This document shows, one piece after another, positions 7,721-63,481 of a stretch of 64,000 bases of DNA. The DNA is taken from the NCBI GenBank assembly GCA_004359435.1, contig PTET01000002.1, positions 84,278-148,277 on the forward strand. The letters run 5' to 3'. The position numbers and the translations under genes are program-made. Position 1 is the stretch's first letter, and every line of letters starts with the position of its first letter. The DNA is from Flavobacteriaceae bacterium. GTDB taxonomy: Bacteria; Bacteroidota; Bacteroidia; Flavobacteriales; Weeksellaceae. A model generated the notes under the pieces. That model was given only the letters and a program-made list of their open reading frames with translations. It did not search any database and had not been told where the DNA came from.

Positions 7721-8665
7721 TTATTTTATAACCCTCACTTCGTTGATGAGGACTATGGGTTTGTTGGATATCAGTTTTAAAGCCATCACTCCTAGAAAAG
7801 AGGTGTATTTTCTGCCTTGAAACTCATACCACCAAAGGGATTGATACACAACACCCTGTTTTTCCATCAAATTGAACCAAATTTTGTCTTTTCCTTGGGT
7901 GATGCATTTGGACTGGGTGATTTTGTAACCGTTTCCTGTCCAACAAACCAAAGGTTTGTGGGTTGGAGTTTTGAGGTAAACCAATTTGCCAGCAGTCTCG
8001 ATTTTGTACACCTCTGGATTGACCCAAGTTCCATTTTTGTGGTTGTAAGTTAAATTTTCTATTTGCAGAGGAGCAGATTGATTGCCGAATTTCGTGTTCA
8101 AACTTATAAATGCGACAATTGATAAACAAACAGATATAACCCAAGGGGAAATTCTGGTTGATTTATGGATAGATTCCTGTTTTTCGGGCTGAAATTGGTT
8201 TATCAAAAATGCCATCGGCACCAACTGATACAAGACAAAACAGAAGATTCCTACGCTATAATGGAGCAAGTTTTCCTCTGTACAGTCAAGCAAAATCAGA
8301 GTAACAATCCGAAAATAATTGGAAAGGATATTGAAAAAAACAACCAAAACGGCAAAAACCAAAATTTGACCCATTCTGTATGTTTTTTGATGTTTCTTCT
8401 CTTCTAAGGTAAGCAAAATGGCACCCAAAAGAAGGCCAGTTTTGAACATGGAAAGCCCCATACAGGCAGTGTCGATGGAAATTTTTGCACCTCCAATTAC
8501 AAAATTGACACCCTCTACTTTTTGAATGTCCACAAAATTCTTGAGTGAAAAATAGACAACAGAACAAAGGGCTTGTTTGATTTGTGAAGTAGAATATTTT
8601 TCTTTTGAAAGTCTTACTGGATTCAAATGAACTGTTCTCAGAAAATTGAATTCTGGAGAGAGTTT
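7721..8665 (-). pseudogene. xrtN: Exosortase N (XrtN)-like, N-terminal TM region missing
   Basis: Exosortase core retained: DTACMGLSMFKTGLLLG, FFNILSNYFRIVTLILL, LLHYSVGIFCFVLYQLVPM (Cys, Arg, His); 5' part lost at the junction with the upstream VIT gene. Confidence 0.75.
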
Positions 8666-10109
8666 CTGCATGATTCAAATTGGGTCCTTTTATCTTCAAA
8701 CTTTGATAGAAGAGCCTATTTCCCTCCAATTTTAATGGAGTGGTAAACCCGCATTTGAAGGTTCTTGGAAGATCAAACGAAATGGGAAAAACCCTTACAA
8801 CCACTTTGTTTCCTTCTCTCCATTGCATCAGAGATGGGTCACGTGCTTCAACAGCTACAATTTGTTTGTAGGCTTTTTGGGCTTTTTCTTTGGTTGTCAG
8901 AACTCCTTTTCTTTCCACTCCATTTACCCAAAGCGAAAGAGAAGTGGCAACTGAACCTTCTGGTAGTTGAAACGAATAAATGGCTTCTTTTTGTCCCCAA
9001 GCGTTGATTTGGCTTGCAACATCAATGGTGATTTCAGTGTAGGCAAGTCTTTCTTTTTCAAAGATTTTCACATCTTGTTTGATGTTTTTGGTCACCAAAT
9101 CTTTTCCACTCCAAAGTTGTTCTTCGGTTTCCAATCTGTTGTCAAAATTGGATTTTAAGATATTGATTCGGTCGTCTTCACTCAACCCCAAATCTTTTGT
9201 AAACATTAGTCCAATATTGTAAATCGGGTTGTGGGTTCTTCTTTCATTGAATTGTTTCATTCCCAATCTTCTGCTTCCAAAAAAATTGTCCATGCTGTTG
9301 GTGCAGATATAAACGATGTCTTTCTTCAACAGAATATTGTTCAAAAAACCTGGTTTCAAGTTCTGGGAAACTTTGATATAAGCAGGCAAATCTTCCTCAA
9401 TATCAAAAGATTTGGTGATGAGATTTTCTTTCAATTTGCGGCTTTCAATATTCAAACTCACCACAAAAACCACCAAACCAAAAAAAACGGTGAGGATTCC
9501 AGACCAGAAGAATTTTTGGTTTGTTCTCTGTTCAGAAAGTTCTTTTTTCAATTTGACTATGTGAATGATTGTAACCACAAAAGGAACCAATCCATAGAAG
9601 CCCAAACCCAATGCCAAAACTCCAAGTAGAGAAATTGGCATGATAGGGATGAGATATACAAGATAATACAGAATCAGGACAAAAGTCGCCCCATTGAAAA
9701 AGTACACCAGTGGGTTGATTTTTTTGTTCAACAAATCAGAATACACAAAAAAGTTTGTAAAACAGAAGCAGAAGGTTGCCACATACACCCAAATGGGAAG
9801 ATTCTCAAAAATCCCCATCAACACATTGGTGCAAAAACATCCAACAAACCAATTGAGTATCAAAAACGGCATCAGATGCAAATATTTGTCTCTTGTTTTT
9901 TTTCTCCATATCAAAATGGTTATGGTAGTTCCATAAGAAAGTTCAAACAAGAGACCCAGAAAGCAGAGCATCTCTATGTCTCGAAATTCCATGTGTAAAC
10001 CAATCAAAGAGATTGTAAACAATACAAAACTCAATAAACTCACAATCACACTTACCCAAACACCAGGTTTATGTTCATGATTTTTGAGGATTTCAACTAT
10101 ATTTTTCAT
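8665..10109 (-). pseudogene. XrtN-system VIT-domain protein, C-terminal half missing
   Basis: Multi-TM N-terminus then VIT-like ASQINAWGQKEAIYSFQLPEGSVATSLSLWVNGVERKGVLTTKEKAQKAYKQIVA...PSLMQWREGNKVVVRVFPI; coding breaks near 8665 and the rest of the 607-aa ORF is out-of-frame read-through of xrtN. Confidence 0.72.
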
Positions 10110-26431: not shown

Positions 26432-27151
26432 TTATTGGAATTTTAAGATGATGGCAATGCCTCGGGTTTGAAGTTCGTCTATAGATCCCATCCACTGATT
26501 GCCTGTGGAAGGATTGTCGTCTATTTTTTCGTTGTTTAATACGTAAATGTATCGAATGGCAGGGGTAAGCCTGAAATATTCAAAATAGAAAGTAGTACCA
26601 ATCTCAAATTGAGCTGAGAAATTGTTGGTAGTACTTCTAAATGTTCCCGTTGAGATGTCTTCACTTTTTTGCTCATTGGACTGAATGTTTCGAATGTACG
26701 AAGCCCCAGCCTGAACATAAGGTCTAGAGTTCATCCATCTTTCTCCATGATATTGCAAGAAAAGCGGAACGTCTATGTAAGTAGATTTTAAGACTCTTTC
26801 GGGCGATTCTGGGATATGATCAAAAACCAAGGTTCTACTTAAAAAATGAACCGAAGGTTCTAGTTGAATATTAAAAGAAGGAGAAAGTTTATAAATACCC
26901 AAAACCCCTACGGTAAATCCCATCTCTGCATCAGAATATACGGTTTGGCTCACGCCATTTGACATGCCTATGGTAGTTGGGTTTAGTTTGTAATCTAGGC
27001 TATTCAGACCAAGGCTGAATCCCCAATCGAAGGTTTCATCTATTCTTCCTGTTTGATAAATGGGTTTGTTTCGGTTGATTCTAAACTGTCCAAAAGCAAG
27101 CGGAAGATTCAGAAATAACAAACTCACCCAAAGTAAATAATGCTTTTTCAT
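26432..27151 (-). CDS. porT: PorT-like outer membrane beta-barrel protein (T9SS)
   Basis: Signal peptide, beta-barrel pattern ending in F-Q; next to menG/ubiE as in many Flavobacteriia. Confidence 0.75.
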   Translation of the reverse strand: MKKHYLLWVSLLFLNLPLAFGQFRINRNKPIYQTGRIDETFDWGFSLGLNSLDYKLNPTTIGMSNGVSQTVYSDAEMGFTVGVLGIYKLSPSFNIQLEPSVHFLSRTLVFDHIPESPERVLKSTYIDVPLFLQYHGERWMNSRPYVQAGASYIRNIQSNEQKSEDISTGTFRSTTNNFSAQFEIGTTFYFEYFRLTPAIRYIYVLNNEKIDDNPSTGNQWMGSIDELQTRGIAIILKFQ

Positions 27152-27707
27152 TTGCTTGAGGTATAAATAGAGGCAATCCCAAAGGTTTGCTTATGTGTCT
27201 TGGGGTCGATGAAATTATTTCTACTGAGAATTTCTTCCAGTTTTTTTCCATAAGGAAAAGCGTTGGCAGACTCAGATAGATAAGTGTAGGCAGATTTGTC
27301 TTTGGAAAGTAATTTTCCCAAAAATGGAAGGATATATCGGGTATATATTTTATAACCCAAATTAAAGGGGAATTGGTCTGGTACGGAGGTTTCTAGAATC
27401 ACAAAAGTACCACCAGGTTTTAAAATTCGATGGATTTCGGCAAGGCCCTTGTTTAAATCCTGAAAATTTCTAACCCCAAAGGAAACCGTAATGGCATCAA
27501 AACTGTTGTCTGCAAAAGGCATTTTTTCTGCATCACCTTTGATAAAATCTATTTTTTGTAAATTTTTAGATGCTGCTTTTTCTCTAGCGACCGCTAACAT
27601 TCCTTCAGAAAGATCAAAACATCAGATATGGTGTTGAACATAGCTTCAACCTGAGATTTTTTGGACTGATCTAAGGTTTGGTAAGGCGTAATTTGATCGT
27701 GCTTCAT
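27148..27707 (-). pseudogene. menG: Demethylmenaquinone methyltransferase with internal deletion
   Basis: MKHDQITPYQTLDQSKKSQVEAMFNTISD then frame change directly into (F)DLSEGMLAVAREKAASKNL...; SAM-binding VLDVATGTGD region absent. Confidence 0.88.
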
Positions 27708-27731
27708 AAGGTCAAAAATAAGAACTAATCC

Positions 27732-28431: not shown

Positions 28432-29189
28432 ATGGGCGCGATTATTATTGGTTCTGGAAGTTATTTGCCTGAAAACAATGTAACAAATGAAGATTTTCTT
28501 CAGACTCAGTTTTTTGATGAAAAGGGACAGCCTTATACGGTAGAAAATAGCGAAATCATTGAAAAATTTAGATCTATCACGGAAATTAAATCCAGAAAAT
28601 ATGTCTGGGAAAATCAAAACAATTCAGACATCGCAGCCCTGGCCGGTCTACAAGCTGTTCAGGATGCTGGTATAGACAAAGAATCGTTAGATTATGTAAT
28701 TGTCGCGCACAATTATGGGGATATGGACGCCAAGCAAAGAAGAACAGACATCACCCCATCTATTTCAGCCCGTGTAAAACACAAAATGGGCATAGAAAAC
28801 CCCAAATGTATCCCCTATGATATGCTTTATGGTTGTCCAGGTTGGGTTGAGGGAATGATTCTAGCCAATACCCTAAAGAAGTAATAGAAAGCGAAGGTTT
28901 AACCGCAGGTGATATAGATCTCATTCTTATCCATCAAGCCAACGCCAAGATGGACCATGTGATGGTGGATAAATTTTTCAAACTTTTTGGTCAAACGCCC
29001 AAAACCGATATCACTCCAATGACCATTCAAGACAATGGAAATTCGTCTGTTGCAACAGTACCTACCTTATATGATTTGGTGAAGAAAAATAAGTTGGGTG
29101 ATTTTAAGCTTAAAAAAGGAGCCAACATTATTTTCGCCTCTGTGGGAGCAGGAATGAACATCAACTGTGTGCTATATCGAGAAAAATAA
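28432..29189 (+). pseudogene. Beta-ketoacyl-ACP synthase III family protein with internal deletion
   Basis: MGAIIIGSGSYLPENNVTNEDF...YDMLYGCPGWVEGMILANT, then frame change to PKEVIESEGLTAGDIDLILIHQANAKMDH...IQDNGNSSVATVPTLYDL; Cys, His and Asn retained but central segment missing. Confidence 0.88.
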
Positions 29190-29195
29190 AACCCT

Positions 29196-30431
29196 GTGAT
29201 ATATTTTGTTCTACTTTTGGCCGTATTAACCATACTCTATTTTGTAGAATTTTATACTTTTTCTGCCATTCAAAGGGTGCTTGGTTTTTCGAAAACCTTG
29301 TTTACCATCTATTTGGCCATCAGTTTTGGTTTTGTTATTTTGCTCTTTGCCTCAGTATCATATATTAGTTTTTCTAAGCAGGCCGATTTTGATTTAGAAA
29401 TTGTCTTTCTATTGTTGAATTTGTTTTTTGTTCCTAGGGCTTTTGTTACTTTTATACTTGTTTTAGAAGATGTTTGGTCAGAAGCCACTTTTTTTCTATC
29501 TCTAATTCTTGAAGGCGACTACCACAAAGTACAGTATAATGGTCGAAGATTTTGGGTGAGTACCTTAGCTCTTATAGGTTCTATTGTTGTTTTTATTGCT
29601 GTTTTGTACTCAAATTTTGTGGGAAGATATAATTTTGAGATAAACAGACAAACCTTGTTTTTTGATGATTTGCCAAAAGAGTTTGATGGAAAAACCATTT
29701 TGCATCTATCGGATTTGGATCTAGGTACTTTTAAAAATCAGGATAAAGTAAAACATTTTTTAGATTCTATTTCTGGTTTAAATCCCGACATTTTAGTGAT
29801 TAGTGGTGGGGTAGTGGTTTTAAAAGCAGAGGAGCTTTCTCCCTATGTTGAATCTTTTAAAAAAATAAATCCACCTCTAGGAAAATATGCTTCCCTTGGA
29901 CTCACAGATATAGGTTATTTTAAAAATTGGAAATCCATATCTCAAAAAGAACAAAATACAAAAAGGCTGCTTGAAGGATTGTCAGAGTCTGGATTTTCGA
30001 TTTTGAGCAATGAAAATAAATTAATTAAAACCCAAAATGATTCTTTGTATATGGTGGGTGTTTTGCCTTCGTATTTTTTTCCTCTGCCCATGAAGGCAGA
30101 CCTAAATGAAGCCATGGCAGGGGTAAATCCAGGTAGTTTTAAAATTCTTTTAAGTCATTGTCCAGATATGTTTTTTAAACAAGTAGTAAATTATCCTCCC
30201 AAATTTCAACTTACCCTTTCAGGGTTTACCCATGGCGGACAATTTGAGTATAGTTTTTTGGGACTTAAGTTTAAGCCATTTTCTATTCTTTTTGAAGATA
30301 CAGGGCTTCATCAATCCAAAGACAGAAAACTGTTTATCAACAAGGGATTAGGCAGTTTTATCTATACAACAGGTAGGTTTGGCGCTTGGCCAGAGGCTGT
30401 TCTAATCACGTTAAAAAAAGGTGCCGGTTAA
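29196..30431 (+). CDS. Metallophosphoesterase-fold membrane protein lacking metal ligands (putative pseudoenzyme)
   Basis: Aligns with 62240-63481 product; motifs altered: SDLD for SDIH, SGG for TGD, GLTD for GNHD, SHC for SHD, GFTH for GHTH. GTG start. Confidence 0.85.
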   Translation: MIYFVLLLAVLTILYFVEFYTFSAIQRVLGFSKTLFTIYLAISFGFVILLFASVSYISFSKQADFDLEIVFLLLNLFFVPRAFVTFILVLEDVWSEATFFLSLILEGDYHKVQYNGRRFWVSTLALIGSIVVFIAVLYSNFVGRYNFEINRQTLFFDDLPKEFDGKTILHLSDLDLGTFKNQDKVKHFLDSISGLNPDILVISGGVVVLKAEELSPYVESFKKINPPLGKYASLGLTDIGYFKNWKSISQKEQNTKRLLEGLSESGFSILSNENKLIKTQNDSLYMVGVLPSYFFPLPMKADLNEAMAGVNPGSFKILLSHCPDMFFKQVVNYPPKFQLTLSGFTHGGQFEYSFLGLKFKPFSILFEDTGLHQSKDRKLFINKGLGSFIYTTGRFGAWPEAVLITLKKGAG

Positions 30432-33488: not shown

Positions 33489-36212
33489 TTACCTGATTAA
33501 GTTTTCAGTGAAAAATTCAGCAAGTTTAGCGTCATAATTGACTTTTAGTTCTTTTACTACTTTTTCTTTTAGCGGCTTTATATGATGTAGTTTTTCGTTT
33601 ATGTAATACGGAACAAACAAATCGGTTAGCCATTTTAATTCAAAGAGTTTATAATCATATGTTTCGTAATTGATTAACCAATTATAGTAGTCTGATTTTT
33701 TTGAAATTTCTTGAATGCTTTCTTGTTTAAAGTCCACATTTAAGTAGGCAAGACAATTAATGAAGTTGAAACCTGTAAAATTCTGAAATTTCCATTTTCC
33801 GTTTTCTTGTTTAATGTCGTATGGTGAACAACTCTCAACCACACTTTTAATGAAACTTTTTAAGAGACTTGAGTTTTCGTCTTTAGTGAAGACGCCTTTA
33901 AATGCTGCGTTCATATAAAAGTCAGCATCAAATTTACTTTCTAAATATTCAACGGATTTTTGTTTGATTGCTTGTTTTCCTGTTTCATTAGCAATATTCC
34001 AAGCAGCAAATATTTGCTTAGTGTCGTGAACTCTGTTGTTACAAGTTGTTTTAACGTAGTTGAATAACTTTTCAAAAAAATCTTTGTCATCTTCCGACAA
34101 AACAAAATTAGTCTTCTCAAATGCTATATCACTAATTAATTCAAGAACATAATCACCCGAATTGTGGTGTTTATCGTCAAATGTTAGTTCAATAATTTTT
34201 TTAATTTGCTCCGATGAAAATATTTGAATTTTTGCCTTAAAAAATTTAATAGCATAAGACCAATTATTGTGATTAAAGTCTTCTGCAACTTGTAAATAAT
34301 TTACAAATGGTTCTGTTATCGGTTTTAATTCTTCATCTGATAGCTCTGCTTTTGAAAGTAACAGCATTATCTTATTGAAAATAAAACGAAGCGACTGGCG
34401 ATAAGATGAAAAGTAATCTTGTTTTAAAATATCATCATTAAAATTAATGCTATCCCAAATACCTGTCGTATATTGAAATGTAAAGAAATTTGTAATTGTG
34501 CTAATGAAACTTTGCTTTTCACTATCAATAATTGGAATACTTTGAATTTTATACTCATTGAAAAGTTGTTCCAACTTTTTTTCATCAACATAGAAATACA
34601 TATAAGATAATAGCATGCTGTCAAATTCTTTAAGTCTGAATTCATAGCTTTTATCTGTAGTAAAACTAATCAGAATACCTTCAATTCCTTTTGTTATGAC
34701 CTGTTTGAACATGTAAAAGTCATCCTTAACAATATGATTATATGAATAAAATGCAAATAGGATATGCAGTTCTTCTCTCAACAAATTGATTGCGTTTGAC
34801 CCCCAACTTGTTCCGCCGTTTTGGTAGAGTTTATTAGTGCTTATTATGCTTTCGACTTGCTCATCAATAATTTCCCGACTCATATGCAAGTAATATTTTT
34901 CTTTTACTTTTATTAATTCGTCCCTTAATTCAAGAGGTATTGATAGTTCATTAATTGTATTATATAAATCAATATTATCTATTTTAGGAAGTATTAGCTC
35001 TTTTTCACTCTCCCACCAAGGGGAATTAATAAAATTTCGTATCTGTTTTATGTTATATAGTGACAAAAAATGTATGGCAGAATTATTTTGATTTTTACTT
35101 TTTTCAGCAACACTGTTTAAAATTTGCCAACCCTTTACGTGTTCGCCAAGTTTACACAAATAATATCCTTCGGCTAATGCTTCCTCAAGCGTTTCTGAAT
35201 GTGCAATCGCTTTGCTTTTTAAGTCTGTGATAAGCGTTTTTATTCTAAACTTGTGAAATTGACAAGACATGCAATTACAGCTATCGTAGTGTTTGACTTT
35301 GATTTTATGATGTTCTATTTCTGTGTATTTTTCTCTGTAACAGATACATTGAATTAAAGAGTTGTTAAGAATGAGGAAAATTTCTTTTAATTTTTCTTCA
35401 TACGGTTTTAGTGAATCATCGCTTATTGTAATAGCTGTATTTTCAACTTTTACTTTTTGCAAAAGTTCATGAATCGCTTTATTGCTCGTTTTTAGGCAGT
35501 AGTGCGAATATGAATCGTGAAAACTTTCTTCACTGTTAAAGATTGGAAGTCTGGAAATTGTTCTTGGGTAGATAAATTTGAATCCTTTAAAGAGCTTTAA
35601 ATATTCTAAAATTTGGTCAACAAGATGGAGGTCTTTGTTAGGTTTAAATGAATTGGGTTTTGTGTTTGATGACTCGGTATTTGTAAATATTTTTTTTGCT
35701 TTTTCAGGGTCAAGTTCTTTTAAAACAAATTCCCAAATTGGTTTTATTTTATCCGAATTATCAAAATTATTTGTCAGCTCTCCTAAAATTGTTGTGTTGT
35801 CGTGAAATTTAATTTTTACACCGTGTTCGTTTAATTTGTTTTCATCGAAATTGAAATCTTTTTTTCTATCAATAATTAAAAAGTGTAACTCATTATAGTT
35901 TTCATATTTCTTTTTTTCTACAAAGGTTTTTAATGTGCTATTAACTTTAGCGCTTGTATTGTTTGCTGTTACTTGAACACAAACTCTTTTTTCTGGATCG
36001 TGTAAGTCAATAGTATCATTGGTTGCACTTTCAATTTTATCTTTTGAGAGATTTAATCCAAAAAGTAAATTTAGAAAATTTCGAAAAAAACCTTCAGCAT
36101 TAACTGCTTCGCTGTTTAAATTATTGGCTGTATGCCTTTTTATACCATCAACATATTGACCTAATAGCTTGTCAATTTCCTCTCTATAATTTCCAGTTTG
36201 TGTTAGTGGCAT
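33489..36212 (-). CDS. SMEK-domain-containing large protein (907 aa)
   Basis: N-terminal SMEK-like NAEGFFRNFLNLLFGLNL...ATNDTIDLHDPEKRVCVQVTANNTSAKVNSTLKTFVEKKKYENYNELHFLII; central Cys cluster CNCMSCQFHKF; helical C-terminal region. Confidence 0.78.
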   Translation of the reverse strand: MPLTQTGNYREEIDKLLGQYVDGIKRHTANNLNSEAVNAEGFFRNFLNLLFGLNLSKDKIESATNDTIDLHDPEKRVCVQVTANNTSAKVNSTLKTFVEKKKYENYNELHFLIIDRKKDFNFDENKLNEHGVKIKFHDNTTILGELTNNFDNSDKIKPIWEFVLKELDPEKAKKIFTNTESSNTKPNSFKPNKDLHLVDQILEYLKLFKGFKFIYPRTISRLPIFNSEESFHDSYSHYCLKTSNKAIHELLQKVKVENTAITISDDSLKPYEEKLKEIFLILNNSLIQCICYREKYTEIEHHKIKVKHYDSCNCMSCQFHKFRIKTLITDLKSKAIAHSETLEEALAEGYYLCKLGEHVKGWQILNSVAEKSKNQNNSAIHFLSLYNIKQIRNFINSPWWESEKELILPKIDNIDLYNTINELSIPLELRDELIKVKEKYYLHMSREIIDEQVESIISTNKLYQNGGTSWGSNAINLLREELHILFAFYSYNHIVKDDFYMFKQVITKGIEGILISFTTDKSYEFRLKEFDSMLLSYMYFYVDEKKLEQLFNEYKIQSIPIIDSEKQSFISTITNFFTFQYTTGIWDSINFNDDILKQDYFSSYRQSLRFIFNKIMLLLSKAELSDEELKPITEPFVNYLQVAEDFNHNNWSYAIKFFKAKIQIFSSEQIKKIIELTFDDKHHNSGDYVLELISDIAFEKTNFVLSEDDKDFFEKLFNYVKTTCNNRVHDTKQIFAAWNIANETGKQAIKQKSVEYLESKFDADFYMNAAFKGVFTKDENSSLLKSFIKSVVESCSPYDIKQENGKWKFQNFTGFNFINCLAYLNVDFKQESIQEISKKSDYYNWLINYETYDYKLFELKWLTDLFVPYYINEKLHHIKPLKEKVVKELKVNYDAKLAEFFTENLIR

Positions 36213-54820: not shown

Positions 54821-55658
54821 TCAATAATTCTCCCGAATGTACAGCAAAATTTCTTCAATTTTGGATTTGAAAATCGAGCCTTTTGAATCAAAATTGGTAT
54901 TGAGAAGGCCAAAAGTAACCACTTTGTTTTGATTTGTGATGATGTATCCACTTAGGTTGTACACTCCACCCATGGAACCCGTTTTGGCATAGACATAAGG
55001 TTTACCGTTTGTACTTTTGTAACTGTTTTTCAGGGTTCCTCTTTGTCCACCACTGGGAAAATAATCCAGAAAATCACTGGGGTTTTCCGTTTTGATTCTC
55101 CCCAAAACCTCCACCAACTGCATGGGAGAAATCAGGTTGTATCTGGAAAGTCCACTCGCATCCACCCACTTTTGCAAAAAGGCAGAGGAAATGCGTTTTT
55201 GGTTTTGAATTGCCTCTATGGTTTTGGTGGTATTGAGTTCGCCTAACAGGGTTTCTCCACACATCAGCAGAATTTGTTCCGCCAAAAAATTGTCGCTTTC
55301 CCACATCATTTCTTGCAAAACTTGTTTTTTGCTTACCGAATAGATTTTTTGCGCTACTTCTTTTGAAACGGGAAATTTTCTCTCTTCAAACTCTTTTCCA
55401 GTCTTTTCTTCCAGCATTTTCAAAATCAATTCATGGCTTAGAAGTAGTGGGATTTCCACCGCCTGATTTCTGCTTTCGGGGTGAAATACATTCTGGTGCA
55501 ATTCTCTTCTAAAACCAGTTGAAACATAAGAAAAAGGCAGAAAAGAAGGAAAAGTTTTTCCGCACCAAAATTTCCAGTATTCCCAGTTGTTTCAGAACTA
55601 TTCTGGGCGGAAACAAAGGCGGAAACAAAGCAAAATAGGACAATCAAAGCCTTTTTTG
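54821..55658 (-). pseudogene. dacB: D-alanyl-D-alanine carboxypeptidase (PBP4/DacB-like), two disruptions
   Basis: Signal-peptide-like KKALIVLFCFVSAFVSAQNSSE lacking a start, then frame change to NWEYWKFWCGKTFPSFLPFSYVSTGFRRELHQNVF...SDNFLAEQILL...DASGLSRYNLISP...YAKTGSMGGVYNLSGYI; SxxK region missing. Confidence 0.82.
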
Positions 55659-62239: not shown

Positions 62240-63481
62240 ATGCTCACCCGCCTTCTAGTTTTACTTTTTGTTTGTGTCTTGATAGAAATTTACTGCTTTA
62301 AGGCAGTAAAAACAGCCTATCCACAATTTTTGGGTGTTTATCTAGGTTTTACCTTTTGCTTGTATGTTTTTTTTCTATACAAGATTTTTACTTTCTCGCC
62401 CTATTTGGGTCTTGGAAAAACGACCCTTTTTACAAGTGTTTTGTTTCTGCTTTTTGTACTTCCTAAATTGCTTGTTTTTGGAGTCCTTTTCGTAGAAGAT
62501 TTGGGTAGAACGGTTCAGTTTAGTTGGCAAAAAATTCAGTCTTTCTTTCAGAAGGAGCAAAGTTCAATAAGTGGAGGGATTCCTCGGAGTGTATTTTTGA
62601 GCAAATTGGCTCTTTTTTTAACAACGGTTCCATTTTTGTCTGTTCTGTATGGAATTACCAAAGGAAAATACAAATATAGGGTCATCAAAAAAGCCATTGA
62701 TTTTCCTGAGCTTCCAAAGGCCTTTGATGGATTACGAATTTTACATATCTCTGACATCCACGTGGGAAGTTTTAATCAGGTTGAACCTGTTAAAAAAGCC
62801 ATCGAACTTATTAATGCCCAAGAATTTGATCTTTTTGTTTTTACAGGAGATTTGGTGAACAATTTATCCTCAGAGATGTCTTCTAAGTGGGTAGAGCTTT
62901 TTAAAACAATCAAAACTCCCAAATATGGGAAGTTTTCTATCCTTGGCAATCACGATTATGGAGAATATATTCAGTTTCATTCTGCCCAAGAAAAACAGCG
63001 GAATTTTGAAGAAATCAAAGCTTTGCATCCCAAAATTAATTTCAATCTACTATTAAATGATTCTGTTCTGATAGAAAAAGACAGCGAAAGAATACATTTA
63101 ATTGGTGTCGAAAACTGGGGAGAGCACTTTAAAAAATTAGGGAATCTTACCAAAGCCTCAGAAAAGGTAGATCCTAAGGCTTTTAAAATACTTTTGAGTC
63201 ATGATCCTTCGCACTGGGAAAAACAGGTTCAAAACAATGAGGTAGATTACCATTTAACCCTTTCTGGTCACACCCACGGCATGCAATTTGGCATTGAAAT
63301 TCCTGGGTTTATTACTTGGAGTCCAGTGAAATATGTCTACCGATTTTGGGCAGGACTTTATAAATCTTCTAACCGCTATTTGTACGTAAACCGTGGTTTT
63401 GGGTTTCATGGATTTCCAGGTAGGGTAGGGATCTGGCCAGAAATCACCTTACTTGAGATTAGAAGTAAAACTACGAGTTAG
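62240..63481 (+). CDS. Metallophosphoesterase with N-terminal TM segments
   Basis: ILHISDIHVGSF, VFTGDLVNN, ILGNHDYG, ILLSHDPSHW, LTLSGHTHGMQFG: all canonical motifs. Confidence 0.95.
   Translation: MLTRLLVLLFVCVLIEIYCFKAVKTAYPQFLGVYLGFTFCLYVFFLYKIFTFSPYLGLGKTTLFTSVLFLLFVLPKLLVFGVLFVEDLGRTVQFSWQKIQSFFQKEQSSISGGIPRSVFLSKLALFLTTVPFLSVLYGITKGKYKYRVIKKAIDFPELPKAFDGLRILHISDIHVGSFNQVEPVKKAIELINAQEFDLFVFTGDLVNNLSSEMSSKWVELFKTIKTPKYGKFSILGNHDYGEYIQFHSAQEKQRNFEEIKALHPKINFNLLLNDSVLIEKDSERIHLIGVENWGEHFKKLGNLTKASEKVDPKAFKILLSHDPSHWEKQVQNNEVDYHLTLSGHTHGMQFGIEIPGFITWSPVKYVYRFWAGLYKSSNRYLYVNRGFGFHGFPGRVGIWPEITLLEIRSKTTS

Follow-up and report, generated by a model that had tools for sequence, protein, structure and literature searches.

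A membrane metallophosphoesterase gene that has very probably lost two-metal catalysis while its reading frame is kept, in a bacterial genome with a second, canonical homolog

The stretch of DNA analysed here (64,000 nt, called the window; all coordinates are positions in it) carries two homologous genes for membrane metallophosphoesterases (MPEs). P2 is canonical, and P1 has lost five of its eight ligand and catalytic residues. With moderate confidence, we interpret P1 as a lineage-specific, catalytically dead MPE that was retained for its fold or for binding after P2 had taken over catalysis. The features that bear on this reading are listed in Table 1.

Table 1. Positions of P1, P2, the FabH-like neighbour, and the altered motifs of P1 in the window
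Feature	Positions	Strand	Description
FabH-like (KAS III) gene, directly upstream of P1	28420..29189	+	out-of-frame internal deletion; about residues 145-250 absent at 28867-28874
P1, degenerate membrane MPE	29196..30431	+	411 aa, GTG start, no internal stop
P1 motif 1 region, SDLDLG for SDIHxG	29706..29723	+	D173 kept, H175 replaced by D
P1 motif 2, SGGV for TGDL	29802..29813	+	bridging Asp 205 replaced by Gly
P1 motif 3, GLTD for GNHD	29898..29909	+	Asn 236 (metal ligand) replaced by Leu, catalytic His 237 replaced by Thr
P1 motif 4, SHCP for SHDP	30153..30164	+	ligand His 321 kept
P1 motif 5, GFTH for GHTH	30222..30233	+	His 344 replaced by Phe, His 346 kept
P2, canonical membrane MPE	62240..63481	+	413 aa, ATG start; neighbours are a BadF/BadG-type gene and rpsF

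Both genes were found where the original prediction had placed them, an intact 411-codon ORF and its canonical paralog. P1 is laid out as about four N-terminal helices (residues 1-145) followed by an MPE-fold domain (residues 146-411). BLASTP aligned P1 and P2 over 406 aa with 32% identity (E 1e-52), and the divergence between them is saturated. P2 is an ordinary PF00149 protein (8.8e-17 in Pfam); P1 gave no match in Pfam even at E<=1. With the NCBIfam models, P1 and P2 scored 79.8 and 97.5 bits against LpxG (NF033458) and 70.3 and 96.2 bits against YaeI (NF008460), all below the curated equivalog cut-offs of 350 and 188 bits, respectively. The overall homology and the fold of a calcineurin-like MPE are present in P1, as evidenced by its identity to P2, the structure model, and the Foldseek matches. 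The ligand set of catalytic PF00149 enzymes (DxH / GD / GNHD / H / GHxH) is not. LpxG, which has the same motif, has been described as an enzyme that is associated with the membrane and depends on Mn2+ (PMC4807358). Annotation by similarity could label P1 a metallophosphoesterase, although it is very probably unable to act as one.

Three of the eight ligand or catalytic positions are retained in P1 (D173, H321, and H346), and the other five are gone (H175D, D205G, N236L, H237T, and H344F). The motif changes that had been reported from inspection of the sequence (DIH to DLD, TGD to SGG, GNHD to GLTD, SHD to SHC, and GHTH to GFTH) are exact. The two-metal chemistry of the MPE family depends on the bridging Asp and the catalytic His. 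Since both are gone in P1, the two-metal mechanism should be unavailable, and P1 very probably does not work as a phosphoesterase of the two-metal type. With five of these eight residues absent, the earlier view of P1 as non-catalytic is very probably right.

We then compared the ligands with the other invariant positions of the family. The invariant-site set consisted of 71 columns that are unchanged across 15 canonical relatives. P1 retains 38 of them, comprising 3 of the 8 ligands and 35 of the 63 others, and the rates of loss in the two classes did not differ significantly (Fisher p=0.46). In leave-one-out comparisons, every other member, including P2, retains 71 of 71-77 invariant columns. 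Because ligands and other invariant sites were lost at similar rates, the ligands were no special target; changes occur throughout the invariant sites, and nothing in P1 points to a newly conserved site. Judged from these columns, the canonical constraint on P1 is lifted as a whole. The original prediction had set lost ligands against conserved flanks. The ligand loss stands, but the contrast was overstated, as 28 of the 63 non-ligand invariant sites have changed too. In the tree, P1 ends a branch of 4.46 changes per site; the corresponding branch of P2 measures 1.04, and the median is 0.23. The neighbouring pnp gene of the same genome is unremarkable (0.38 vs. 0.20). As measured on these branches, the acceleration is specific to P1. 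Also beside pnp, a 907-aa ORF (33489-36212, minus strand) has a low GC content at codon position 3 (0.25) and is possibly an acquired gene.

The constraint remaining on P1 was assessed by a neutral simulation, in which P2 was taken as the start and mutated until only 38 of the 71 invariant columns remained. None of the 200 runs was free of stops at this point, and the mean number of stops was 13. When the simulated loss was restricted to 5 of the 71 invariant sites, about 90% of the runs carried stops and about 10% were stop-free. The changes at the invariant sites of P1 are also milder than the neutral ones (mean BLOSUM62 -0.38 vs. -0.87, sd 0.29). Furthermore, the hydropathy of P1 tracks that of the family (r=0.65), and its GC content by codon position is typical of a coding gene. 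These results suggest, indirectly, that P1 lost its canonical function but probably remained under constraint at the protein level during most of the period that followed.

Structure prediction, which had been proposed as a check, gave a confident model. AlphaFold2 placed a four-helix membrane part and an MPE domain in P1 (pLDDT 88.1, pTM 0.86; for P2, 93.4 and 0.89), consistent with the earlier description of P1 as a membrane protein. The confidence of the P1 model is lower at about residues 291-300, 341-370, and 381-400, and the active-site loops are among the less confident parts. Because the model was built with an alignment of canonical homologs, it is no independent proof of folding. PDB sequence searches with P1 and with the family profile returned no matches, so we turned to a fold search; the Foldseek matches of the P1 model included Mre11, MPPED2, PolD, and the B subunit of human Pol epsilon.

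The main alternative, though a less probable one, is that P1 is redundant and on its way out. With P2 present, the constraint on P1 would have relaxed to folding and non-toxicity, full neutral decay would be recent, and the open frame would be a functionless leftover. The uniform loss of ligand and non-ligand invariant sites, the extreme branch, and the less confident active-site loops all agree with this, as do the broken FabH-like neighbour and the restriction of the altered P1 to a single genome. However, P1 has neither a stop nor a frameshift. Neutral loss of 5 of the 71 sites leaves about a tenth of the simulated frames open, and loss of 33 of the 71 leaves none. The conservative character of the changes at the invariant sites argues against this explanation as well.

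We consider it improbable that P1 is still an enzyme with an altered chemistry, for example, one that uses a single-metal site formed by D173, D175, and H346. Metal site 1 does retain these three as potential ligands, with an Asp replacing the His at position 175. However, the bridging Asp and the catalytic His are absent, site 2 retains one ligand, and neighbours in the active site have turned hydrophobic (N208V, N236L, Y239I, and H344F).

The gene order around P1 was compared with that of its relatives. P1 starts 6 nt past the stop of the FabH-like gene. Among 54 MPE loci of relatives, 33 have a FabH-like gene on the same strand within 1.5 kb upstream (<=1.5 kb), and the MPEs of these loci are canonical. 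In several of these fabH-linked loci, ubiE lies on the other side of the FabH-like gene, as it does in the window. The genome nearest by pnp (G038) has a single MPE, which is fabH-linked and canonical. Given that a canonical MPE stands directly behind the FabH-like gene in many genera, P1 occupies the resident slot of the family. Three lineages whose MPE is unlinked have another gene behind the FabH-like gene. The locus of P2, between the BadF/BadG-type gene and rpsF, was not seen in the flanks of the relatives' MPEs, and in the tree P2 clusters with homologs that lack the fabH linkage (support 96/87). The lengths of two loops in P1 match the fabH-linked type, and also a few other homologs; they differ from those of P2 and its tree neighbours. 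The position of P1 in the tree is unreliable owing to its long branch, and we therefore relied on the gene slot and the loop lengths. A tree with P1 and P2 as sisters was not rejected by the AU test (p=0.135; 9.5 lnL units below the free tree). Since this test keeps a sister relation possible, it is gene order and loop lengths that support the proposed sequence of events. On these grounds, P1 is most likely the positional ortholog of the fabH-linked membrane MPE, and P2 the copy at an odd locus. This reverses the paralog relation that had been assumed: P1 is no additional copy next to a resident gene.

The altered form was then sought in other genomes. At the nine motif positions examined, DHDNHDHHH was the reading in all 144 further homologous loci that cover every motif. 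Some of these loci were collected by a scan whose patterns demand intact motifs; free of this bias are the roughly 65 that were recovered with P1 as the query. Where genomes have two homologs, the second copies that were fetched proved canonical as well. In one relative (locus L204, G267:C42:75492-86398), two canonical membrane MPE copies lie within 11 kb, which indicates that duplication alone does not cause motif loss. The copy in another genome (G197) is merely split by a frameshift. No altered-form ortholog was found when P1-specific peptides were searched against GTDB contigs, and no second case appeared in 323 genomes of the family and 398 of the order (overlapping samples, with one genome of the genus). 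Likewise, these samples and the GTDB contig scans yielded no full-length homolog with more than about 36% identity to P1. On present evidence, the altered state would be a single-lineage event in a widespread family of Bacteroidota membrane MPEs whose ligands are invariant in all other sampled members, two-copy genomes included. The original prediction had named orthologs with intact motifs as a finding that would speak against it, and such orthologs exist, namely the canonical MPEs in 33 of the 54 relatives' loci. Its proposal that selection had maintained P1 is supported insofar as long neutral decay is rejected by the simulation. Its further proposal of a conserved regulatory pseudophosphatase is unsupported, as the altered form occurs in one genome only.

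Several genes in the window carry clean internal deletions. In the FabH-like gene, about 100 codons are missing; relatives have about 300 nt where the window has 8. Both remaining parts are 51-60% identical to those of relatives and are otherwise undecayed. The ubiE gene (menaquinone methyltransferase; 27148-27710, minus strand) is without about residues 30-88 and out of frame, and its remainder is undecayed. When the host genome (G000; 1.65 Mb, 5 contigs, 83% complete) was searched for ubiE, this broken copy was the sole match. At 7721-10109 (minus strand), the XrtN exosortase lacks the first 104 or so profile positions, and the VIT protein of the XrtN system lacks positions 490-822. The two genes are read in different frames and share about 390 nt, which suggests a deletion across both. 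A further ORF (54821-55501, minus strand) covers positions 267-427 of the 444 in the peptidase S13 (D-Ala-D-Ala carboxypeptidase) profile, its N-terminal part being apparently missing. The deletions in the FabH-like, ubiE, and XrtN/VIT genes may be real or assembly faults, and are too recent to account for how far P1 has diverged. They might suggest that P1 itself is an assembly or binning artefact of a metagenome-derived genome, which is very improbable, since P1, at the expected position, has an open frame that can be aligned over its full extent and shows changes along its whole length; deletions or misjoins cannot yield such a pattern.

Our preferred reading, that of a dead MPE retained for its fold or for binding, implies the following course. 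A second canonical homolog, P2, would have come to cover the catalytic role from another locus. The loss of five residues from P1 (the bridging Asp, the Asn, the catalytic His, and two His that bind metal) would have followed, leaving, by established MPE chemistry, no two-metal centre and no means of leaving-group protonation. Thereafter P1 would have evolved on under protein-level constraint, with frame, helical membrane part, and MPE fold kept, as the simulation and the structure model indirectly suggest. By analogy with known pseudoenzymes, P1 may now act through the binding surface of the MPE fold as a non-catalytic membrane protein, whose partners could be P2 or the membrane complex that the ancestral enzyme served. 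The restriction to a single genome and the even spread of the changes over the invariant sites count against this reading, as do the broken FabH-like gene upstream and the GTG start, both as in a gene losing importance. If it is correct, P1 provides a clean case of a resident gene that was free to turn into a pseudoenzyme once a copy at another locus had replaced the enzyme. It is a rather unlikely extension that P1 is a membrane pseudophosphoesterase which regulates P2, or its complex, through a heteromer, and so is the bacterial equivalent of those eukaryotic subunits whose phosphoesterase domain is inactivated.

Among known systems, the membrane MPEs of Bacteroidota (LpxG/YaeI-like, PF00149 behind about four helices) are like P1 in full-length homology (28-38% identity), in the layout of helices and domain, and in the slot behind the FabH-like gene. 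However, all other members examined keep the ligand and catalytic residues, of which P1 lost 5 of 8. Literature searches by the words metallophosphoesterase pseudoenzyme and calcineurin-like pseudophosphatase found nothing. VPS29 of the retromer has the MPE fold and serves as a metal-independent scaffold rather than a functional metalloenzyme (PMC3101248). VPS29 is a soluble eukaryotic protein, old and conserved, with known partners, whereas P1 belongs to the membrane and to a single bacterial lineage. The B subunits of DNA polymerases alpha, delta, and epsilon likewise contain an inactivated calcineurin-like phosphoesterase domain as a structural subunit, as reported for Dpb2 (PMC7308368), and the Pol epsilon B subunit is among the Foldseek matches of P1; these subunits are ancient and universal in eukaryotes, and their context is unrelated to that of P1. 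In trypanosomatids, prozyme is a dead paralog that activates AdoMetDC (PMC5201418). This pair resembles P1 and P2 in that an active and a dead homolog occur in one genome and in being lineage-restricted. The fold of prozyme differs from that of P1, and prozyme acts on its active paralog, whereas an interaction between P1 and P2 would be hypothetical. Pseudoenzymes are known as a kind, and P1 would be a new case, so far in one species.
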